Shown here piece by piece: positions 2,212 through 19,164 of a stretch of 21,314 nt of DNA (positions are counted from its first letter, which is position 1; the number at the start of each line of letters is the position of its first letter). The notes under the pieces were generated by a model. That model made no database searches. It was not told where the DNA came from and was given only the letters and a program-made list of their open reading frames with translations. Both the position numbers and the translations under genes were made by a program. The stretch is from a virus. The stretch covers positions 1 to 21,314 of IMG/VR virus record IMGVR_UViG_3300044695_004115; one strand, 5' to 3'.

Positions 2212-4928
2212 CAGAATCCTTTAAACATCGATGTAAATTCACCCAAGATTTGGCTACCTGTCTTTGATTTGTAATCTGTTTCTTCATCATCCAATCCTAA
2301 GTTAAAGATACTTTTTTCTTTGGTGGTTGTCTCATCTGTTGTATCGGTGTCCTCATCACCAAAGAAACTTTGGATAGTACCAAGGGATGCGGATGGATCA
2401 CTTAAGTCAAGTCCTTTTAACTGAAGGGCGCTGCCTGCGCCCGCCTTGGTGAGAAGCTGCTGCTCACTTCGGTCCGTATCGGGGAACAAGTCTGTGTAAA
2501 ACTCATCTTCTGTTCCCTTGTAACCGGCCTGTTGAAAGACTCTGTACATTTCCGTTTCTGATTTGATCGAGTCTGTCTTGTAATCTTCGGGCCTTTCAAT
2601 ATAATCAACACCTAAAACTTTTTGAGTAGGCTTCTCACCTTTTTCATTCAGGTATTTGATCTGCTCTCTGATTTGTTGTGCGGAACCCGTGCGTAATGTC
2701 TCTGCAACTAAGTCTTTAAATTCACCCAGGTTGCCCTGGAAATCCTTCAGGCCAACAGCATCCAGCGCTTTTTGCCAAGTAGCTTTATCCGTTGGGTCTA
2801 GGCCCTGCAACATCTCATCGGCAAACTCTTCTGGCGTGATGAATTGACCAAAGATTGATCCCTGTTTTAGTGCTTCTTCTTTAAGAGAAGGCAAGATTTT
2901 ATTGTAAATTTCATCTTGTACTTTCCCTGCGTTTAATACGTCTTCTGCCGGGTCGTATCCCAAACCTTTCCCCTTGACCTGGAAGTGCATTCGCGCAAAT
3001 TGTTCTTTGTTATTTGGATCAATACCAAAGCGATAAGCCTGGCTTGCCCAGTATTCATCACCGGCTTTTGCCTTTTCCCAATCATCTGCTACTACCTGAG
3101 ACTGTTGAGAGTAAGCATCAGTCCTGGCCTTGTCCCCAGTGGGATTGAAATAAAAGTCGGCATTAAAGTAACGGTCGGGAGTATTTTGAACTTGAGCTAA
3201 AAACTGATCGGCACGCAAGTTGGCAACCTGACTAACAGCGTTTAGCATGTCTTGCGTTTGGAACGGGTTTTGTTCTTGTTGCCGAACATCAAGGTACTCC
3301 GTGAATTCACTGATTGAACGAGAGGTGTTAAAACGTGGGATCAAATACTTGTCCATAAAATCCCTTGCAAACTGCGCTTCAACTTTGATGGTGTCTTTTG
3401 CTGCCTCGGTGCTGTAACCAAGTTCAACTTCTTGTTCGTACTTCTTCTTCAGCTCCGTATCAAACCATTGTTGCCAGTTGTAGGTGGTGCTGTTGTTGAC
3501 ACCTGTTATGTTTTGAAGGCTTTTCTCCAGGGAATCCTGGGACGCTTTGCCAGATGTAAAAGAAAGAATACCACCAACCCCAGAATCGCCAAGGATGCTG
3601 TTACTGAGTTCTTTGTTGATGTCCATGATTTCTCCAAAGCCGGAAAAACCTTGCATAAGGCCAAGCATTTGTTCTTTTCCCTTGGCCTTCTTCATTTGTT
3701 CAATGGTGTCCTTTAACACATTTTGAGTTAACGCACCAAATTTCTTGGCGTCTACTGTTGCCTTTTCACCAACGGCTTGGTTTACTGCATCTTCTAATTC
3801 CGTGACGCCATACCCAGCATTCAAGTTGTAAGCAAAACTTACTTGTTTGTCTTCTGGTCGTTGGGACAAACGGAACAGTGCGGCGAATTCATCAGGTTTC
3901 TCTGGGTTTAAAAACTTCTCTTTGCCCAGTGTTTTCCAGTATTGATCACCTGCTTTTGCTTTATCCCATTCAGCAGAAACCTGTGGCACTGCCAAAAGGC
4001 GTTCAGTTTGTGTGTCAGTATTAAGGCCTAGCTGGAGGCTACGGGCAGCCTGAATGTCGGCATCGGTTGGCTTGCGTTCCAGGTATTGGTTTGCTGCTGT
4101 TGTTTGTTCTGCGGCATTGCCACGCATCCCTGCCGCCTTCCCTTGAGATGTGTAATGTTGAAGGTAATAAGAGTTTTCAGAATACCTTTGGGTAATGTCA
4201 ATATCATCATTAGCAACTGCGGCTTGCCACTTTTGCCCTACATCTGGATTGATTGATTTGTAGTACTTTGGATCAAAGTCACCGTACTGCGGTTTTGCCC
4301 CCAGGTTTGCATCCCAGGTTTGTAGCTTTTCAGTTGAGTAAAAAGCTTTGAAGTAATCCTCTAATTGTGATTTAGTTACATCACTAATACCCTGGAGCTT
4401 TCTAATTTGCTCCCTTTGCGTAACATAGTCTCCCCCTTGAGTTGAATTAGCTGTTGCAAGGACGGTATTGTAGGCGTTATTTTTGCTTGTGTTCTCAGTG
4501 TTTAGAGCTGTATTTTCTTGGTTTCTTTGTGTGTTTAAGTTGTTTGTTTGTTCGTTGTTTCGGTAAGTCGTTGCCGTACTTGCAGCTTTATCGCGCAATG
4601 CTTGAGTTGCTGGTAAATAAGTAAGACTGTCTAGCCCTCCAAACCTTGAGCTAATTGCTTGTCTAACGCTTTGATCGGTAATATTGTCCCTTGGTACCGA
4701 CCCTGCGCTAATCCAGCCAGGCCCCGGCGACGAAGACTGAGCCGCAGTGTCGGTTACGACGGTATTGTAATAATTTTGTCCTTTGATAACATACGAAGAC
4801 GTTCCAGTTTTTACCCAAAGATTTACCGTGCCTGAGTTCTCTAGATTAGTTGGAAAATTAGTTTGGTAGTCTGTTTTCTCCTGTGCCAGATTCCACTTTT
4901 TGTTTGTTGGATCGTAAGATAATGCCAT
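2211..4928 (-). CDS. 905-residue putative internal virion or tail protein
   Basis: I do not recognise a named family. The protein is Gln/Asn/Asp-rich and largely predicted helical, without signal peptide or membrane segments. Visible parts: an N-terminal β-like region (1-100); an Asn/Thr/Gln-rich low-complexity linker (~120-165); a stretch at ~217-265 with DPKYYKSINPDV and then HYTSQGKAAGMRG, resembling the DPxYYLxxNPDV...HYxxxGxxEGR motif of many bacterial surface and secreted proteins; two similar ~40-residue segments at ~314-355 and ~610-650, each containing KAKAGD(Q/E)YW; a C-terminal FQQAGYKGTEDEFYTDLFPD segment; and an acidic tail. Size, position among structural genes and internal repetition fit a tail or ejection protein; this is inference. 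The start ATG overlaps the HNH stop in a TAATG. Confidence 0.75.
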   Translation of the reverse strand: MALSYDPTNKKWNLAQEKTDYQTNFPTNLENSGTVNLWVKTGTSSYVIKGQNYYNTVVTDTAAQSSSPGPGWISAGSVPRDNITDQSVRQAISSRFGGLDSLTYLPATQALRDKAASTATTYRNNEQTNNLNTQRNQENTALNTENTSKNNAYNTVLATANSTQGGDYVTQREQIRKLQGISDVTKSQLEDYFKAFYSTEKLQTWDANLGAKPQYGDFDPKYYKSINPDVGQKWQAAVANDDIDITQRYSENSYYLQHYTSQGKAAGMRGNAAEQTTAANQYLERKPTDADIQAARSLQLGLNTDTQTERLLAVPQVSAEWDKAKAGDQYWKTLGKEKFLNPEKPDEFAALFRLSQRPEDKQVSFAYNLNAGYGVTELEDAVNQAVGEKATVDAKKFGALTQNVLKDTIEQMKKAKGKEQMLGLMQGFSGFGEIMDINKELSNSILGDSGVGGILSFTSGKASQDSLEKSLQNITGVNNSTTYNWQQWFDTELKKKYEQEVELGYSTEAAKDTIKVEAQFARDFMDKYLIPRFNTSRSISEFTEYLDVRQQEQNPFQTQDMLNAVSQVANLRADQFLAQVQNTPDRYFNADFYFNPTGDKARTDAYSQQSQVVADDWEKAKAGDEYWASQAYRFGIDPNNKEQFARMHFQVKGKGLGYDPAEDVLNAGKVQDEIYNKILPSLKEEALKQGSIFGQFITPEEFADEMLQGLDPTDKATWQKALDAVGLKDFQGNLGEFKDLVAETLRTGSAQQIREQIKYLNEKGEKPTQKVLGVDYIERPEDYKTDSIKSETEMYRVFQQAGYKGTEDEFYTDLFPDTDRSEQQLLTKAGAGSALQLKGLDLSDPSASLGTIQSFFGDEDTDTTDETTTKEKSIFNLGLDDEETDYKSKTGSQILGEFTSMFKGF

Positions 4929-5299
4929 TATCCAGCAGCAAATGTATCTGGTACCGTCTCAATATTATAAGTAAACAGGTCAATAATTTCTTGGTGTATC
5001 CAGGCTTCAATCCTGTTCATCCTTACTTCGGTGTAGTACGTCTGCTGTGGATACCATTCTTCCATTTTTGAACTAGCCTTGTTTGCATTACATCTTTTGC
5101 AGCAAGGCAGAAGGTTGTTCCGATTGCTGGAACCAGAACGAAACCTTGGGACAATGTGATCCAAGGATGTAGCTTGGTCCTCGCAATAACCACACTTGTG
5201 GTCCCACGCATCGTATATGGATTGACGGTAACGTTTCTTGGCCAATTTAGGAGTTAATTCAAGGAGAAGGGAAAGGGGTTCCTGCTCACAGTTGAACAT
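4928..5299 (-). CDS. HNH endonuclease, coupled to the 905-residue gene
   Basis: A 123-residue HNH nuclease. The core runs KCGYC (Cys36, Cys39), then SLDHIVPRFRSGSSNRNN with Asp47-His48 as the first H of the motif and the NRNN asparagines, then LLPCCKRCNANK with the second zinc pair Cys67/Cys70. A ~30-residue helical N-terminus and a ~45-residue C-terminal segment flank it. Phage HNH proteins of this kind nick or cut DNA, either as homing endonucleases or in packaging. Here the stop overlaps the next gene's start in TAATG, so it is integrated into a virion operon rather than isolated. The upstream 135 bases hold the divergent control region shared with the plus-strand HTH gene. Confidence 0.9.
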   Translation of the reverse strand: MFNCEQEPLSLLLELTPKLAKKRYRQSIYDAWDHKCGYCEDQATSLDHIVPRFRSGSSNRNNLLPCCKRCNANKASSKMEEWYPQQTYYTEVRMNRIEAWIHQEIIDLFTYNIETVPDTFAAG

Positions 5300-8963: not shown

Positions 8964-10886
8964 TTAGGGCATTGCTGCGCCGTAGTGAATAGCAAGAATA
9001 TCACCATATTTTGTTACGCCTGCAGGGCCGGTAGCCCCTGTTGCACCTGATACACCTATTACACCAGTAGCTCCTGTAATGCCTATCACTCCTGTGGCAC
9101 CTGTAACACCAGTGGGGCCAATAACGCCAGTGGCACCTGTTGGTCCTGTGATTCCCACACCAGTAGCGCCTGTTGGTCCCGTGATTCCAGTGGCACCTGT
9201 TACGCCCTGAACACCTGTGGCGCCGGTGATTCCAATGACACCCGTCGCACCTTGTACGCCAGTCGCACCGGTAACACCTGTTACACCTGTAGCACCTGCA
9301 ACGCCTGTAGCACCTTGAACACCTGTTGCTCCCGTAGTTCCAGCAACTCCTGTAGCGCCGGTTATTCCTACACCTGTGGCACCAGTTGGCCCGGTGGCAC
9401 CTTGTGGTCCGCTAACCAACGCTAAGAATACAGCTAGGTTATTCGCAAAGTTTGTCGAGCCTGTACCACCGGATGCAACTAAAGTTGCCGGATATGTCCA
9501 GTAGCTGGTTGACGTGCCAGGATTAACGTTCGTTGGGGTGCCGTTAACTTTCCATGTTTGGTAATTAGAACTGGAGCCTTGGTCCTGGATTGTAATAATT
9601 TCTGTATTGAAAACTTGCGCAAGAAAGATATCGATATCAATCGCATCGCTTGTTAAATGGCTAACGTTGATTTGCGTTGCACTTGCTTGTGTTGCGTTGT
9701 TCCAAATTACAAAACCTGCGCCTGGATCTCCGCTTGTAATTGTTGTCTTTGCGGAATACTTAAAGAGACTGGAAGAAAAACCTTGTGGTCCTGTGGCACC
9801 AGTGGGACCGGCAACACCTGTAGCGCCGACACCCGTGGCACCTTGTACGCCTGTAGCGCCAGTGGAACCCTGTACACCCGTGGCACCAGTGGCACCTGTA
9901 GCGCCCTGTATGCCGGTTGCACCTGTGATACCAACAACGCCTGTGGCACCTTGTACGCCAGTGGCTCCAGTGGCACCTGTAGCGCCTTGCGTACCAGTGG
10001 CGCCGGTAACTCCTGCAACACCGGTAGCACCCGTGGGACCAGTTATGCCCTGAACTCCGGTAGCACCTGTGACACCGGTAGGACCCGCAATGCCTGTTGC
10101 GCCCGTTACTCCAGTAACTCCTTGGATACCAGTGGGACCTTGTATGCCAGTGGCACCTGTTGGACCAGTAATACCTTGAACACCAGTGGCACCAGTAGGG
10201 CCGTCAATACCTGTGGCACCGGTGGGACCAGTGGGTCCATCTACGCCCGTTACACCTTGAATACCTGTGGCACCTGTGGGACCAATGGGGCCTGTAGCGC
10301 CGGTAACTCCAGTGACACCTGTAGGACCAGCTACGCCTGTGGGACCGGTAATACCTTGAATACCAGTTGCGCCTTGTGGACCAGTGACACCTTGTATGCC
10401 GCTCGCACCTGTAGGGCCACTTGGACCTGTGGGGCCTGTAGTACCAGAGGGACCAGTAGGACCGGTGGGGCCGCCACTAGGGCCAGTGGGACCTGTCGGG
10501 CCAATCATTGTATAGACCTTCGCCAAACCGGCGGAATCGTATACAACCCAATCTGCGTTCTCATTGAGGACCACAGATTCGCCAGCGAGAAGCAAACCAG
10601 TCCACACAGTGGTTGTTAATGCACCATCAGTGTGATTGATGGTAATACTGTTGCTTAAAGTTGGATGATCATTCTTGATAAAACAGGTTCTTAAGTTGCG
10701 CTGAATAGTGGAGGTTGTGGGACCAGCGACAATTGTAGTTGTTGTGGCAGTTGTGATATTGGTGTCAAGCCTACCGGCGGACACATTACCGCTGTTGTTA
10801 TCTGCAAACGCAGCATGAACTTCAACATTCGTTGCCGCCGAAGTAACAATACGAACAGCATCCGACGTGGAAGTCAGCAGTAACAT
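8964..10886 (-). CDS. Collagen-like phage tail fibre with two Gly-X-Y blocks
   Basis: 640 residues. A β-rich N-terminal domain (~1-128, probably the virion-anchoring part) is followed by a long collagen-like block at ~129-369 and a globular domain at ~370-492 ([20 protein letters not shown] ... [14 protein letters not shown]). A second collagen block runs ~493-623, and the protein ends in [15 protein letters not shown]. The triplets are mostly G-x-T (GPT, GAT, GVT) alternating with GVQ/GIQ, and are richer in Thr and Val than in Pro. Short breaks such as GVGAT and GVGIT interrupt the register. Phage and bacterial collagen-like proteins form trimeric rods, so this is probably a trimeric side or tail fibre. 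Long reading frames on the opposite strand are products of the repeat. Confidence 0.9.
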
Positions 10887-13417: not shown

Positions 13418-14017
13418 ATGGTCCAAACTGTTTTTACTTGCAAGAATTGTGGCAAAATTTTTGAACGTTCTGGCATGGCTGGGGCTACGTGCCGGGCTCG
13501 GGTAAGGCAACGTGGTTATGTTTTTTGTTCTAAAGGCTGTGGCAGCTACAAGCACGGTGGGTACAAAAATCAAGACTCGGAATATTGCTCGTGGAACGCA
13601 ATGAAGTCTCGTTGCAATAATTTAAACCATGGCTCTTATGCCCGCTATGGAGGCCGTGGTATTACGTATGATCCATCATGGGAAATTTATACAAATTTTC
13701 TTACTGACATGGGGCCAAAGCCAAGCCCTGAAATGGAGTTAGAAAGAATAGACAATGACAAAAACTATTGTAAAGAAAATTGCCGCTGGGCCACGCATAA
13801 AGAACAGACTCGCAACCGTGGCGGAAAACGTGCAACACGTCTTTACACGTTTAACGGGAAAACTCAATGCATTGCCGATTGGGCAAAAGAAGTTGGCATC
13901 AGCCCGCAATCAATGCAAAAACGGCTCAACAATGATTGGCCTTTGGAAAAAGCGTTTTCCAAAGAAAGGCACGACGCAAAAGGCAAACCACAAGTAAAGC
14001 CAAGGCAGAATACCTAA
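13418..14017 (+). CDS. HNH-type homing endonuclease with zinc ribbon and C-terminal HTH
   Basis: 199 residues in three parts. Residues 8-45 form a zinc ribbon (CKNCG, then single cysteines, then CSKGCG). Residues ~56-134 carry the nuclease signature YCSWNAMKSRC...YGGRGI...FLTDMGPKP...LERIDNDKNYCKENCRWAT...EQTRNR, a pattern widespread in phage and bacterial HNH-like endonucleases. Residues ~144-183 (YTFNGKTQCIADWAKEVGIS then SMQKRLNNDW) are a helix-turn-helix like the DNA-binding repeats of homing endonucleases. It is a plus-strand gene among minus-strand structural genes, almost touching the 88-residue gene's stop (2 bases), so it looks like an inserted free-standing homing gene. Codon use appears more A/T-rich than the neighbouring structural genes. 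Confidence 0.85.
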   Translation: MVQTVFTCKNCGKIFERSGMAGATCRARVRQRGYVFCSKGCGSYKHGGYKNQDSEYCSWNAMKSRCNNLNHGSYARYGGRGITYDPSWEIYTNFLTDMGPKPSPEMELERIDNDKNYCKENCRWATHKEQTRNRGGKRATRLYTFNGKTQCIADWAKEVGISPQSMQKRLNNDWPLEKAFSKERHDAKGKPQVKPRQNT

Positions 14018-15170: not shown

Positions 15171-16049
15171 TTACTTTTGTGTAGTGAAAATGGAGTCCTT
15201 GAACATTTCCAGGAGCCTTTGGGCCTCTGGCCCCTTAGGGTCAAACTTATCAACAGCGGACCCCATTGGTTGGATGCCTGTTGCGCCTGCGTATGAGGCA
15301 CTGGGCATTTCTGAGGGGAAGCCTAAGGGAGCGCTCTGAAGTGTGGGGCCCTGACTGAAGCCTGCATAAGGAGCCGCAGAGGCACCAGCAAAGGCATTCC
15401 TCGGCACAGTAGAAAGACCTAATCCTTGGGCCACCTTGCCAGCATCATAAGACGCAGGAGAAATAGGGGGCGTAGTTCCAAGGGGGGAGCTGGTGTCAAA
15501 CGGTAAGTTCAACGGTGAACCCATCTGACCTACGCCTTGCATGCGCTGAATGGCGTCGTAGCCTGACTGACCCGGCTTAACTTTTGCCGCAAGTTTTGGA
15601 TTAGCTTTAGCCCACATCTGCATACCCATATCTTCTGCAGATTGTTCGGCAGCAGAACCAGGGCCTGCAGCAACGGCTTTCTGGCGAGCGGCTTCGTAAC
15701 GTTGAAGCTCAGGGTCCTGTGCAGTTAGTTGGGCAACACGAGAAACTTCCTGTTGGTAAGCACGTTCTGTTGCGGGGGAAAAAGTCCCCTGCGGAGCGCC
15801 AGTAGATGTTGAATAACCTGCGTTACCACCACTGCCGCCACGATTTCCTAATCGTAACTCAGCATCACGATAAGACTCGCCAAATTTATCTTTAGGTGGA
15901 ATACTGCCAACACGAGTAGTGCGTCGTGCCGCATCAGCAGTCAAACCAGCTCCGAGAAGAGAACCTAAGCCTGCTGCAAAACGTCCGACTTGAGCTACAC
16001 CGCCAAGGGCGCGTGCACCTGCCAAGGCTGGTCCAAGTAATTGAATCAT
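15171..16049 (-). CDS. 292-residue putative internal virion / tail protein
   Basis: No family recognised. The N-terminus (MIQLLGPALAGARALGGVAQ, continuing GLGSLLGAGL) is a Gly/Ala/Leu-rich amphipathic or membrane-seeking segment of ~40 residues. A Gly/Ser/Thr linker follows, then a helical central part rich in Ala/Gln/Glu (YQQEVSRVAQLTAQDPELQR), then a Pro/Ser/Ala-rich low-complexity stretch to a short C-terminal helix LLEMFKDSIF. This organisation fits an ejected or internal head protein. The ATG at 16049 overlaps the preceding gene's stop in a TAATG and is preferred over a TTG nine bases upstream. The Gly/Ala N-terminus resembles that of the 205-residue gene at 20469. Confidence 0.65.
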   Translation of the reverse strand: MIQLLGPALAGARALGGVAQVGRFAAGLGSLLGAGLTADAARRTTRVGSIPPKDKFGESYRDAELRLGNRGGSGGNAGYSTSTGAPQGTFSPATERAYQQEVSRVAQLTAQDPELQRYEAARQKAVAAGPGSAAEQSAEDMGMQMWAKANPKLAAKVKPGQSGYDAIQRMQGVGQMGSPLNLPFDTSSPLGTTPPISPASYDAGKVAQGLGLSTVPRNAFAGASAAPYAGFSQGPTLQSAPLGFPSEMPSASYAGATGIQPMGSAVDKFDPKGPEAQRLLEMFKDSIFTTQK

Positions 16050-16510
16050 TAGCGCCAAACCTCATGTAAATAAATACGGGAACCAACTGCGGTGTCGGCA
16101 GGTCCAGGTAATGCCTGGATGAATTCAGCACCAGAGCGTTCGTAACGGTATCTGGCCTGGAACGGATCCTTGTAGTTTGGAACGTAAAGGATGCCGGCTA
16201 AACGGTTTGTTTCGTAGAGATAAATCTCATCCCAAACCTTTAAGGCTTCTTTGGCATTACTGGATCTAATGGTACGATCAACGTCACCAGCAATGCTTTC
16301 GAGGCGCGTAGAAGGAGAAGTAGCAACTTCAGTTTTCTTTTCAGCTGTGTCACAACGACCCAACTGAATAGCGAGCTTGTCGTAAAAATACGAATCCGGC
16401 ACGGTATTCATTGCTTCTTCCAGGCGGGCGTAATCGCCAGCCGGAACAGAAACAGTAAAGTAACCGAGGTGGTAACGAACTCTACTTTTGTCGTAGTCGC
16501 TTAACTGCAC
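16049..16510 (-). CDS. 153-residue putative head-tail connector or neck protein
   Basis: I cannot place it in a family with certainty. It is a soluble, mixed α/β protein: SDYDKSRVRYHLGYFTVSVP at the start, then an acidic helix GDYARLEEAMNTVPDSYF, a long central helix region (IAGDVDRTIRSSNAKEALKV) and a Tyr-rich end FQARYRYERSGAEF...GSRIYLHEVW. The YDKSRVRYHLGY opening and small size are reminiscent of neck or adaptor proteins I associate with cyanophages, from memory. GTG at 16510 is the start; a TATAAT (16533-16538) lies upstream with no good -35. The next gene is coupled by TAATG. Confidence 0.6.
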   Translation of the reverse strand: MQLSDYDKSRVRYHLGYFTVSVPAGDYARLEEAMNTVPDSYFYDKLAIQLGRCDTAEKKTEVATSPSTRLESIAGDVDRTIRSSNAKEALKVWDEIYLYETNRLAGILYVPNYKDPFQARYRYERSGAEFIQALPGPADTAVGSRIYLHEVWR

Positions 16511-16549: not shown

Positions 16550-17287
16550 TCAACCAAACAGGCCATTGAGATAATCTGATGTGGCGCTGGATTGACCCAT
16601 AAGTAACGGATCGTTTGTTCTGTAGGAATCCAGGAATCCCATGGGGTTGAGTGCTTGTGAAATTAAACCTCCAACCAACTGTTCTTTAAGCGTGTCTTGT
16701 ATTGTTTTCTTGGGTTTTTCTGGTTCTCTGCCCTGCAACTGAGCGCCGTACATGAATGCTTTAATGATGTCGTCAGCTCGAGAATCTGTGCCCCCTTGCG
16801 GTTGAGTCGGTGCTGCAGTTGGTGCAGTTGATGCAATAGCCCCGGCTTTGCCAAGGGATTTCATGTGTCCGAAACCAAGTTCGTATTTGTTATCTCCTGT
16901 GGTAAATGCTGCCAGGTTGCCGTAACCACCTTGATTAGCAAGGGGTTTGTATGTACCAGAGCCTTCAAAATAAACCGGAGTTCCTTCTGGAAGAGCCCAA
17001 TCTTCCCCCCGGTGAAACGAACTGGCCCCCTTGGTTGGGGCACTGCGCGGACCATACTTGGAAGTCAGGCTGATCCCAGCTTGTGGATTGAAATCATATT
17101 TGCCTTCTTTGTTTTTAATCAGTGCTGGGACTCTTTGCTCGCCAATGCGAACACCAGCCAAAGCAGAACGAATAGTAGAGGGATCAATATATTGTCCTGT
17201 CGAAAGATCTTTAACATAAACATGCTTATGGGGGCCGGTTGATACTCCGGTAGAACCCACCTGTCCTAAGTATGTTATGCCTGCCAT
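16550..17287 (-). CDS. M23 (LytM-type) zinc endopeptidase, apparently circularly permuted
   Basis: 245 residues. M23 enzymes cut peptide cross-links of murein and normally read HxxxD, then a catalytic His, then GxTGxSTGPHLHFEV...DP. Here the protein opens with that last element, LGQVGSTGVSTGPHKHVYVK then QYIDP (residues 7-36, HxH at His20/His22). It continues with the usual beginning: LTSKYGPRSAP (74-84), FHRGEDWALPEGTPVYFEG (His92, Asp96), GGYGNLAAF (120-128) and LGFGHM (His141). All expected zinc and catalytic residues are therefore present in rotated order. A Thr/Pro/Gln linker and a ~50-residue C-terminal module shared with the transglycosylase-like protein follow. A terminator lies just upstream of the ATG, so no N-terminal part is missing from the annotation. 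Probably a virion-associated hydrolase. Confidence 0.82.
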   Translation of the reverse strand: MAGITYLGQVGSTGVSTGPHKHVYVKDLSTGQYIDPSTIRSALAGVRIGEQRVPALIKNKEGKYDFNPQAGISLTSKYGPRSAPTKGASSFHRGEDWALPEGTPVYFEGSGTYKPLANQGGYGNLAAFTTGDNKYELGFGHMKSLGKAGAIASTAPTAAPTQPQGGTDSRADDIIKAFMYGAQLQGREPEKPKKTIQDTLKEQLVGGLISQALNPMGFLDSYRTNDPLLMGQSSATSDYLNGLFG

Positions 17288-17314
17288 GGTATCGTTTTAT
17301 TCTTCATTGTAAGA

Positions 17315-17340
17315 TTAAAAAACCCCTGGTTTCCCAGGGG
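17315..17340 (-). terminator. Rho-independent terminator, minus strand
   Basis: On the minus strand CCCCTGG-GAAA-CCAGGGG is followed by TTTTTT, a perfect 7-bp GC-rich stem with a tetraloop and U-tract. It ends transcripts coming from the right and separates them from the M23 gene. It sits ~15 bases after the displaced gene end at 17355-17405. Confidence 0.9.
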
Positions 17341-17354
17341 CTTGGTGGAGATAG

Positions 17355-17405
17355 TTATACGCGAATTAAATCAGCAGCAAGTACGCCAATAAAACGTTTC
17401 AGGTG
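17355..17405 (-). pseudogene. Displaced 3' end of the helix-hairpin-helix gene
   Basis: The minus strand here encodes HLKRFIGVLAADLIRV followed by TAA, with an in-frame TAG just upstream. The intact helix-hairpin-helix protein (17906-18316) ends QIKRVDWNAVLAADLIRV. The last nine residues are identical but seven of the nine codons differ at synonymous positions. This is an orphan gene tail, cut off by the HNH gene between the two copies, and it still precedes a strong terminator. Confidence 0.7.
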
Positions 17406-17431
17406 CTATAGTTTTATTTTGCTGCTTTGGA

Positions 17432-17875
17432 ATGAAAAGGATTAATCCGGATACGGGGCAGGCCTTTAAGCACGGGGATCGCCGAGAAGACGGCTTTATG
17501 TTCACTGGTTACAATTTTAAAAAAATAAAACAAGACGGCACCTTCCTGGAAGTATGGACAAGCCCTGAGCAAATAAACCACAAGAAAGCGTATGACAAAA
17601 AAAGAAGCCAACGCATTTCCATAGAAAACAGAAATTGGATGAACGAGTTAAAAGTGAGCCAAGGTTGCGCCTGCTGCGGATACAAAGATCACCCAGAAGG
17701 CCTTGACTTTGATCATCTTTATGATAAAAAATTTAACATCGGCAGGGGCGGCACGTTAAGCAAAAAAAGACTGGAGAAAGAAATTCAAAAATGCCAAGTT
17801 CTTTGTGGAACTTGTCATCACATAAAGACAAGAAATGAGCAAAAATTTAATGAACTAATGAAAAAGAGGGGTTGA
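17432..17875 (+). CDS. HNH homing endonuclease inserted at the end of the helix-hairpin-helix gene
   Basis: 147 residues, very lysine-rich. The HNH core is QGCACCGYKDHPEGLDFDHL with zinc cysteines Cys79/Cys82 and the Asp94-His95 pair, then a helical spacer (KKRLEKEIQKCQ), then VLCGTCHHIKTRNE with Cys125/Cys128 and His129. This is the usual layout of phage HNH proteins of the CxxCG...DFDH...LCxxCHxxKT type. The N-terminal ~70 residues, with a GYNFKKIKQDGTFLEVW β-segment, may contact DNA. It is on the plus strand against the surrounding minus-strand genes, is A-rich, and is flanked by two copies of the host gene's 3' end, each with a terminator. Its TGA lies in the loop of the downstream hairpin. 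Confidence 0.9.
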   Translation: MKRINPDTGQAFKHGDRREDGFMFTGYNFKKIKQDGTFLEVWTSPEQINHKKAYDKKRSQRISIENRNWMNELKVSQGCACCGYKDHPEGLDFDHLYDKKFNIGRGGTLSKKRLEKEIQKCQVLCGTCHHIKTRNEQKFNELMKKRG

Positions 17876-17885
17876 AACCCCTCTT
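17864..17885. terminator. Bidirectional terminator between HNH and helix-hairpin-helix genes
   Basis: AAGAGGGGTT and AACCCCTCTT form a perfect 10-bp stem with a two-base loop. On the minus strand it runs into TTTTT, a good U-tract ending the helix-hairpin-helix transcript; on the plus strand the following GTTTG is weaker. The TGA stop of the HNH gene occupies the hairpin centre (17873-17875). Confidence 0.85.
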
Positions 17886-17905
17886 GTTTGAGTTATGCAT
17901 TTAAA

Positions 17906-18316
17906 TTAAACCCTAATCAAATCGGCCGCCAGGACCGCATTCCAATCAACACGCTTGATTTGCTTCAGCTGTTCAAGATTATTGAATCTTTCACCCGACA
18001 GAGACATCTGAAGGTCTTTAATCTCACGCGCTGTTTTAAGGCCAATTCCCTTAATGTGATCCGCAAGCATTTGTGCGGTAGCGGAATTGACATTTAAACG
18101 GTGATCAGGGGGGAAATCCCGTGGGTCCTCTTTGGCTGCTTTATCTTTGACTTGAAGAGTTTTTACCTTTTTGGTAGCCTCTTCATCTGGGATAAGTTCA
18201 GAGTTGTAAGCGGTGTAAAGGCGACCGTCCTGATCTTCGACCATGAACCAATCGCCATTATCAAACTCACTAACAACTTTGACGCGAGCGCCAGTTTTTT
18301 TGTGCTGGTAAAGCAT
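17906..18316 (-). CDS. Helix-hairpin-helix (ComEA-like) protein with N-terminal SH3/KOW-like domain
   Basis: 136 residues. Residues ~1-42 look like a small β-barrel: KKTGARVKVVSEFDNGDWFM, then VEDQDGRLYTAYNSELIP, the pattern of KOW or SH3-like domains. A charged linker (45-72) leads to a helix-hairpin-helix unit LNVNSATAQMLADHIKGIGL followed by KTAREIKDL (74-102), the fold used by ComEA-like proteins for non-specific DNA binding through the GIG turn. The C-terminus is KRVDWNAVLAADLIRV. It lies directly after the capsid genes, where head-completion or DNA-associated proteins are common; that role is inferred. A 9-bp hairpin ends one base before the ATG. The gene's 3' end appears to have been replaced by a recoded copy delivered with the neighbouring HNH gene. 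Confidence 0.75.
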   Translation of the reverse strand: MLYQHKKTGARVKVVSEFDNGDWFMVEDQDGRLYTAYNSELIPDEEATKKVKTLQVKDKAAKEDPRDFPPDHRLNVNSATAQMLADHIKGIGLKTAREIKDLQMSLSGERFNNLEQLKQIKRVDWNAVLAADLIRV

Positions 18317-18317
18317 A

Positions 18318-18342
18318 AGGACCAGATGTTAATTCTGGTCCT
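18318..18342 (-). promoter_or_regulatory. Hairpin one base upstream of the helix-hairpin-helix ATG
   Basis: On the minus strand AGGACCAGA and TCTGGTCCT form a perfect 9-bp stem with a 7-base loop, then T, then the ATG at 18316. The 5' arm contains AGGA, the only Shine-Dalgarno-like sequence, so folding would hide it. There is no U-tract, which argues against a simple terminator. The layout mirrors that before the endolysin. Confidence 0.55.
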
Positions 18343-18354
18343 AGTTTAGCTTAT

Positions 18355-19164
18355 TCAGCTGACAGTGCGGCCAAGCAGGTAAGCTTCGATGTCTTCGTAG
18401 CCAGGGGCAATGTCAGGCTGGACGTAGCAGGTTTCCACAACCAGGTAACCAACACGACCGGCGGCGGCGTCACCGCTGGAGATGTAGAAACCACCGGAAG
18501 TCGTGGTGGAGTTTGCAGTTTCCTTAGCAAACACACGCATCGTGGTCGAGGCAGTAACCGGGTAGTTCACCACAGAACCAGAGACACCAGCGGCGCCAGT
18601 AGCGGTCAGGAAGGCGTTGGTACCATAACCGGCAGTGCCGCCAGCGAAGTAGATTTCGCCAGCTTGGAGGCCGGAAACAGTGGAAGTCAGGTTGGCTTGA
18701 ATCACGCCTTCACCCACGCCAGAAGCGGCGACAGGTGCACCACCGTTGCTGCGACCGAACGAAATGACGTTACCGGTAGCGGCATACACACCAGAGGCAA
18801 CACGGCCGTCACCCCAACCAGAGGCAACCGAAATGGCAGTGCGGTACACGTAAGCAGGCAGTGTGCTGCTACCAGAGATCACCATGCCCGTGATGTCGGG
18901 ACGAGTGTCATCCTGACGATAGGGAGAAGGAACGATCACGGCAGCGGAGTTAACGCTACCAGCACCAGAGGTGGTTGTCACTGCGACATAACCACGCTGC
19001 TGGAAATAACGGTAACCAGGCAGAGCAAGGACCGAGGTAGGGCCACCAAGGGAGCTGTCGAGAGCGCTACCGCCTTCGACAACAGAGTCAATGTTCTTGT
19101 ACCAGCCGTTCAGGGGTTCTGCCCAGTTGCCTGGGAAGATTTTTTTAGCGGACAAATAGGTCAT
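18355..19164 (-). CDS. Capsid-associated / decoration-type structural protein
   Basis: 269 residues, β-rich and Gly/Ala/Ser/Thr-dominated, with the N-terminal MTYLSAKKIFPGNWAEPLNG and a C-terminal DIAPGYEDIEAYLLGRTVS. No known enzymatic motif, signal peptide or membrane helix. It lies 35 bases downstream of the major capsid gene with a good AAAGGA ribosome binding site, and shares that gene's C-rich third codon positions, unlike most other genes here. Both features indicate strong late expression. A head decoration, vertex or second abundant virion protein is the likely role; the family is not recognised, so this rests on context and codon use. Confidence 0.7.
   Translation of the reverse strand: MTYLSAKKIFPGNWAEPLNGWYKNIDSVVEGGSALDSSLGGPTSVLALPGYRYFQQRGYVAVTTTSGAGSVNSAAVIVPSPYRQDDTRPDITGMVISGSSTLPAYVYRTAISVASGWGDGRVASGVYAATGNVISFGRSNGGAPVAASGVGEGVIQANLTSTVSGLQAGEIYFAGGTAGYGTNAFLTATGAAGVSGSVVNYPVTASTTMRVFAKETANSTTTSGGFYISSGDAAAGRVGYLVVETCYVQPDIAPGYEDIEAYLLGRTVS

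Follow-up and report, generated by a model that had tools for sequence, protein, structure and literature searches.

A probable free-standing HNH homing element with a substitute gene end inside a helix-hairpin-helix gene of a cyanophage

Introduction

Mobile open reading frames (ORFs) that bring a foreign C-terminus to the gene they enter are known from fungal mitochondria, in atp6 of Allomyces and in atp6, atp9, cox2 and nad3 of Glomus, as the relevant passages of one report describe them (PMC3630166). They appear to be the closest known kind to the element described here, and the likeness to Allomyces atp6 drawn in an earlier note on this DNA holds good, the architecture being the same in so far as those passages describe it. 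In both cases an endonuclease ORF with a substitute 3' end lies inside a coding gene, and the native end beyond the insert stays close to relatives while the inserted end is diverged. Transcripts of the hybrid gene are formed in the fungal type, in which the native end is frequently silent. The fungal ORFs of that account are mitochondrial and belong to the LAGLIDADG or GIY-YIG type, whereas the present element is of the HNH type and phage-borne; in view of its family and its host, it would work like the fungal type and yet be no member of it. Measured against the same passages, the phage elements also differ in that a 5' version exists, that they bring a terminator of their own and have the HNH gene oriented opposite to the gene they enter, and that hybrid empty alleles occur.

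A free-standing homing endonuclease of a phage typically cuts the empty allele and is passed on preferentially in crosses. The seg and mob genes of phage T4 encode free-standing endonucleases; these genes are intergenic, and cleavage takes place hundreds or thousands of bp from them, according to the part of a review that treats them (PMC2988022). The present element resembles them, as portrayed there, in being phage-borne, lying outside introns and adjoining conserved genes, and HNH proteins are included among them; it differs in lying inside coding sequence with a substitute end. With mobE of phage Aeh1 it reportedly shares a free-standing HNH gene within a coding gene that stays functional, but the ribonucleotide reductase gene of Aeh1 is said to work in two pieces (genes-in-pieces), whereas here one gene piece is replaced. 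In design, the element is also like the engineered HomeR drive, which, in the portion of the paper that sets it out, combines a 3' coding target, a re-coded gene end, a foreign 3' UTR/terminator and a nuclease (PMC7968924); HomeR is a synthetic CRISPR system in flies, and the likeness is one of design, not of kinship. No phage endonuclease with a substitute gene end was found in the open-access PubMed Central literature, an absence that weighs little because subscription papers and preprints lie outside that scope.

Results

Anatomy of the insertion

The window, i.e. the whole stretch of DNA analysed, is a virus record of 21,314 bases. It is a fragment of an S-EIV1-like cyanophage, with genes resembling those of Synechococcus phage S-EIV1 (KJ410740). 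The features at and around its helix-hairpin-helix (HhH) gene are listed below; compared loci carry L numbers.

17906-18316, minus strand: HhH gene, whole, ending VLAADLIRV-stop
17942..18316, minus strand: resident part of the HhH gene 5' of the break, encoding up to ...KRVDW (Pfam HHH_3, E 4e-6)
17906..17941, minus strand: putative substitute gene end, 11 codons and stop (NAVLAADLIRV-stop), 24/36 nt identical to the native end of L012
17864..17885, both strands: cassette terminator-like stem, new end of the HhH gene and end of the HNH gene
17432..17875, plus strand: HNH endonuclease gene, 147 aa (PHROG 3106, E 2e-24)
17385..17431, no strand: cassette end between the HNH start and the orphan, containing the element-specific 18-mer 17387-17404
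17355..17384, minus strand: orphan, the apparently displaced native gene end VLAADLIRV-stop, 30/30 nt identical to nine HNH-minus loci (L012-L020)
17320..17343, minus strand: old terminator-like stem of the HhH gene, directly behind the gene in empty relatives
16550..17287, minus strand: M23-family peptidase gene, the next resident gene (Pfam PF01551, E 1.2e-7)

Judging from the sequences compared, a cassette consisting of a substitute gene end, a terminator and the HNH gene appears to sit inside the HhH gene, with the native end displaced. The earlier note had observed that the closing VLAADLIRV-stop of the HhH gene at 17906 recurs in the same direction at 17355-17384 (minus strand), with only GAT and ATT shared among the nine sense codons of the two copies. 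Both observations were confirmed, and the TAA stop is shared too. Of the two terminators proposed, that at 17864-17885 was recovered as given, and the lower stem lies at 17320-17343, a few bases off the claimed 17315-17340; five terminator-like sites were present in 17280-17960 against 0.9 expected from shuffles. The orphan tail is likewise real, but its identity to empty relatives starts at 17384 and not, as supposed, at 17405. Extension of the orphan 5' into the KRVDW codons was not significant, since 111 of 5000 shuffles and 247 of 6077 45-mers of the window scored as high.

The break in the native HhH gene lies right after GATTGG, about 5-6 bases 5' of the start of orphan identity. It is 36 nt ahead of the native stop, and the insertion is thus inside coding sequence and not intergenic. 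The native order GATTGG/GAGTCC/GTACTT... has given way to GATTGG/substitute end, the HNH gene and then GGC/GTACTT..., with five or six native bases lost. The substitute end is in frame with the resident HhH gene and diverged from the native end; against that of L012, three codons are identical, seven synonymous and two non-synonymous (N for E, A for S). A stop ends the HhH gene ahead of the HNH gene, another precedes the orphan, and no Rfam intron match was obtained at E 1 in 17100-18400, where only a sub-threshold microRNA family appeared. No ATG, GTG or TTG occurs in the open stretch 17355-17405 of the orphan.

Relatives with and without the element

The best 80 HhH loci among 589 viral contigs with an HhH relative were compared. 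Four carry the HNH element, 74 do not and two end too early to be judged; HNH presence or absence at one site varies among close relatives. According to a prediction of the earlier note, the HhH gene of HNH-less relatives should end in the orphan version itself, with the old terminator next. It does so, which supports the insertion of a cassette into the gene with the old end left stranded. In nine empty loci (L012-L020) the HhH gene ends in the exact 30 nt of the orphan. L012 equals the window for 606 nt from the first base of the orphan through the downstream sequence, and 297 of the 300 nt before the break also agree, but only 24 of 36 do over the last 12 codons (in this last-36-nt comparison set, L017 aligns badly downstream, 233/600). 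The pattern points to the window being an L012-like genome with an insert, the cut-off codons having been replaced and the originals lying beyond the HNH gene. Between the HhH and M23 genes, the gap is 67 bp in the closest empty loci versus 618 bp in the window, a net 551 bp. An orphan tail in HNH-less relatives, the observation that would have spoken against insertion, was found in 0 of the 74 empty loci within 1.5 kb, each scanned as far as its sequence reaches (in one locus only 107 nt downstream).

Nine further viral contigs, with nine different sample numbers, contain the element; the element-specific 18-mer at 17387-17404 is exact in these HNH+ contigs and occurs at no other place in the viral collection. 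A 16-mer following the substitute stop was tried as a sign of the element at other sites and rejected, as its 36 occurrences comprise ten at the HhH gene and 26 in unrelated context.

In the lineage to which the window belongs, the gene end of the HNH+ loci L004, L007, L008, L009 and L085 is identical to that of the window. Outside this end the loci vary by a few percent, with at most few differences in the 100 nt immediately upstream of the break. A second HNH+ lineage of five contigs, with HNH 82-83% and HhH 87.5-88% identical to those of the window, has the same junctions on a different background. Its substitute end agrees with that of the window at 24/30 nt and its orphan at 25/30, and four of the five positions at which the orphans differ are third codon positions. 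These differences fit each orphan having been a working gene end until its own insertion, a support that is only suggestive because the sites are so few.

The HNH protein, a PHROG 3106 HNH endonuclease, is a complete 147-aa frame outside any intron or intein; it (17432-17875) gave no Pfam HNH match at E 0.1. Its confidently predicted structure (model pLDDT 93.7) has HNH nucleases as its best PDB matches, all weak (E 0.055 at best). Cys pairs, which we take to be zinc-binding, and a DxDH-type motif are conserved among 18 HNH relatives, the motif roles being presumed. No promoter was recognised for the HNH gene, the one weak site inside the gene comparing with 1.5 expected by chance. By family and by its presence and absence among relatives, the protein is probably of the free-standing phage homing endonuclease type.

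Divergence of the two ends and hybrid alleles

The new end had been called recoded in the earlier note, a reading not borne out here: the substitute end is no further from the native one than natural alleles are from each other, and selection for recoding is unsupported. Among 35 distinct native HhH ends, the mean pairwise identity is 21.4/30, as compared to 22 for the window pair and 19 for the second lineage, and the terminase pairs of L132, L211 and L112, described below, have percentile ranks of 30, 41 and 17 among natural pairs. As such divergence is ordinary among natural alleles, a diverged origin of the substitute end suffices to explain it; a role for the divergence between the two ends is possible.

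In four empty HhH loci, the last 36 nt start as the substitute and finish as the native end. Each has a single switch, which falls between positions 18 and 24 in L003 and L005, 24 and 28 in L006, and 15 and 18 in L011. The terminase of L214 is also a hybrid with one switch, plus three private bases, and at the conserved gene equivalent to window 16049-16510, L009/L084 and L090/L103 resemble hybrids by eye. Empty alleles that are part substitute and part native suggest failed homing or loss of the cassette. They would be working genes without HNH, and resistant ones if the substitute end is left uncut.

Recurrence at other genes of related phages

To go by their sequences, the same architecture appears at a terminase gene, at a DUF3310 gene and at the conserved gene of unknown function corresponding to window 16049-16510, with two HNH families. 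A locus in which the body and the orphan side resemble the same empty relative and the attached end does not was counted in favour of insertion with a substitute end. The flanks of 64 further HNH relatives, L154, L191 and L192 being left out, were scanned for translated repeats; this gave three more cases, and no countable orphan in the remaining 61. A repeat in L150/L151 (score 49) is AT-rich with stops, and hence was not counted.

In L132, the gene of the terminase large subunit (Pfam Terminase_6C) has 225 nt in two copies that are 77% identical. The orphan ends like the nearest relatives L193 and L194 and the attached end does not: against these relatives the 300 nt before the end are 92.7-93.7% and the orphan with 120 nt beyond it 93.4-94.2% identical, and the attached end reaches at best 79.7% identity to any compared locus. 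GC3 is 0.24 in the attached end versus 0.49 in the orphan. In L137, the DUF3310 gene has the attached end KYLWRCMLKGKPVEDLKKCQWYLERLIQTFED and the orphan KYVWREKHKGGTESLKKAQWYLSRLIELDG; among 80 DUF3310 relatives of the gene of the window, 78 are of the orphan type, none of the attached type and two of neither by pattern. L126 presents the mirror image, at the 5' start of the gene equivalent to window 16049-16510. Its stub is the native start, agreeing with L060, L066 and L067 at 89/90 coding and 45/45 upstream nt, and its working start matches the HNH-bearing L128-L130 (82/90 and 42/45).

Among 80 terminase relatives a second tail is present in L211 and L213, where both the attached and the stranded end encode VWLVNGLARKGQLHLDY with synonymous codons. 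L211 and L207 are 89.6% identical in the body, 76.5% over the attached end, 98.0% over the orphan and 97.3% downstream. The terminase of L112 has a further second tail, on a contig shared with the occupied L008. In L020 and the L087 group, a cassette with the stranded end RIYLHEVWR is placed at the 3' end of the 16049-type gene, and its endonuclease is of a different family (HNH_3, PHROG 99). L020 is 96.8% identical to L019 in the body, 62.7% over the attached end and 99.3% downstream. For L112 and L087, a close empty relative is absent from the compared set.

An HNH gene of the same family as in the window overlaps by a few bases the stop of a DNA-polymerase-like gene ending SWGEIKKK in L135, L139, L140, L141, L142, L144 and L149; the flank scan gave no orphan in these loci.

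Annotated phages

A scan of 17 annotated phage loci, each with one of the two HNH families, was set against a null with a 99th percentile of 47.6 and a maximum of 357, the latter inflated by related loci inside the null. One locus stands out, that of Klebsiella phage pKp383, and the other 16 gave no detectable orphan. In pKp383, an orphan lies behind the helicase and an HNH_3 gene, and matches the helicase end of Geezett at 73/77 nt and that of SBP at 63/75. The own helicase end of pKp383 is 50-78% identical to that of Geezett in the last 60-nt windows and 91-98% further 5'. Its divergence from Geezett begins about 300-380 nt before the stop, and the orphan is far shorter than the stretch that was replaced. 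Geezett may not be an empty allele, because another gene, with no Pfam match and HNH-like by eye, follows its helicase; as an empty allele, SBP makes the better comparison. Klebsiella phage RCIP0080 shares its gene end and HNH gene with pKp383 and carries an orphan too. In KP34, EFA-2 and 536_P3, the last of them T3-like, the HNH family of the window lies at DUF3310-type gene ends, with no detectable orphan there. A repeat in Pantoea phage PdC23 (score 49) was rejected, as it involves unrelated genes.

Chance occurrence of gene-end repeats

Repeats of a gene end (last 9 residues, at least 7 identical, plus stop, with the second copy within 1.5 kb) were counted in 5566 open stretches of at least 80 aa from 353 overlapping, redundant sequences. 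This gave 34 rows, themselves redundant because the loci overlap. An HNH-motif ORF lies between the copies in 25 of them. Seven have a 616-nt spacing, the intervening ORF being an HNH_3 endonuclease in the two inspected (L020 and L087), and the last two, in the unrelated contig L119 and in a collagen-like repeat of the window, have no endonuclease ORF. A piecewise scan of three phage contigs (85.7, 84.6 and 124 kb) gave many repeats within other genes and, by reading of the rows, five gene-end repeats, each flanking an HNH-type gene. A peptide repeat RVLPDNYWPT, 271 nt apart, was also seen in two phage contigs (L363 near 39151 and L370 near 88455).

Discussion

Insertion, substitution, displacement, empty and hybrid alleles, and recurrence at other genes are all observed in the loci compared. 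We consider it probable, with good confidence, that a free-standing phage HNH homing element has inserted within the 3' coding end of the HhH gene, bringing a substitute piece and a terminator. For cleavage, homing and the roles of the arms and of divergence, we infer the following course. Besides the endonuclease, the mobile unit would include a terminator of its own and a replacement for the piece of the gene that lies on the element's side of the break. The HNH protein would cut the native allele near GATTGG/GAGTCC, and a coinfecting HNH+ genome would be the template for repair. The gene body would provide one homology arm, and the displaced native end with the downstream sequence the other; the whole unit would be copied and the gene would stay complete. 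The displaced end would then be an outer homology arm that has lost its role in the gene. Divergence of the ends and the foreign terminator may hinder repair from finishing in the gene end before the endonuclease is copied, and an early finish, or later recombination of the two ends, would produce a working HNH-minus allele, part substitute and part native. The substitute end may be an occasional by-product, because most of the scanned HNH relatives are without an orphan. Against this account stands pKp383, in which the replaced stretch exceeds the orphan by far, as plain co-conversion would give. The ordinary size of the difference between the ends, the lack of a recognised HNH promoter and the absence of close empty relatives of L112 and L087 from the compared set also count against it.

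Unlikely, but a serious contender, is intronless homing with one-sided repair, in which the donor end is plain co-conversion, the orphan an accident and the substitute end no functional part of the element. The HNH gene would normally stand just behind the gene in a diverged phage, and repair of the break would have relied on homology towards the gene and on a chance join at the far side. This agrees with the orphan-less KP34, EFA-2 and 536_P3, with the 61 of 64 scanned relatives that are likewise orphan-less, with an end difference no larger than between natural alleles, and with the early onset of divergence in pKp383. It does not sit well with the HhH gene, where substitution begins at the break with few differences at most in the nearest 100 nt upstream and where an identical junction occurs on two backgrounds, nor with orphans that recur at several genes, at both gene ends and with two HNH families.

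Local duplication we regard as improbable. In that reading, the gene end was first doubled where it stands, the HNH gene then entered between the two copies, and the attached one drifted synonymously. In its favour, the last residues encoded by the two ends agree at the HhH gene and in L211. Against it, the native end is the orphan and not the attached copy, the L137 peptides are far apart, the attached start of L126 matches the other HNH-bearing contigs L128-L130, and the GC3 values of the two L132 ends are unlike. For present-day alleles local duplication is refuted, unless it was ancient and the unit spread afterwards. An assembly chimera or a chance repeat might be suspected of mostly metagenomic contigs and a repeated peptide of only nine residues, but has next to no probability given the nine sample numbers with the 18-mer, the few such repeats without an endonuclease, and the arrangement at another gene (helicase) in two isolate records. 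That the tail is a separate short gene, a case raised in the earlier note, or the insert an intron or intein has the repeated peptide and nothing beyond it in its favour, and is dismissed in view of the missing start codon, the stops ahead of the insert and of the orphan, and the lack of an Rfam intron match.

The homing element with a substitute piece would show how an endonuclease gene that supplies its own repair patch can occupy a conserved gene with neither an intron nor an intein, and the coding sequence of conserved genes would thereby be open to free-standing elements. It is also a possible cause of gene-end shuffling next to phage nuclease genes. Beyond the earlier observation, the comparison shows the arrangement at several genes and at either gene end, with two HNH families and in two isolate records, and it adds the hybrid empty alleles. 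A wider idea, to which we lean slightly less than to its opposite, is that phages host recurrent natural home-and-rescue drives: at least two HNH families would carry the displaced piece (3' or 5'), its divergence would be maintained since homing aborts when the copies are alike, and the hybrid empty alleles would be drive-made functional resistance alleles. Such a natural system, readable in populations, would bear on the problems of engineered rescue drives, namely premature repair and functional resistant alleles.

Other genes of the window

A second HNH endonuclease gene of the window (13418-14017, plus strand; PHROG 3377, E 7.5e-46) is oriented opposite to its neighbours; a scan across it for translated repeats gave none that was convincing (best score 39) and no orphan end. 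A third HNH protein (4928-5299, minus strand) is similar to the HNH portion of IscB (NCBIfam E 5e-12, well short of the cut-off); it may be resident rather than mobile, because S-EIV1 carries an HNH nuclease gene at a like place. The S-EIV1 terminase frame (L002 14689-17229, KJ410740) has about twice the length of related frames, which align to it in two separate pieces, the pattern expected of an intein. The window also encodes, at 8964-10886 (minus strand), a long collagen-like GPTG/GATG repeat protein, which is likely a tail or fibre part.
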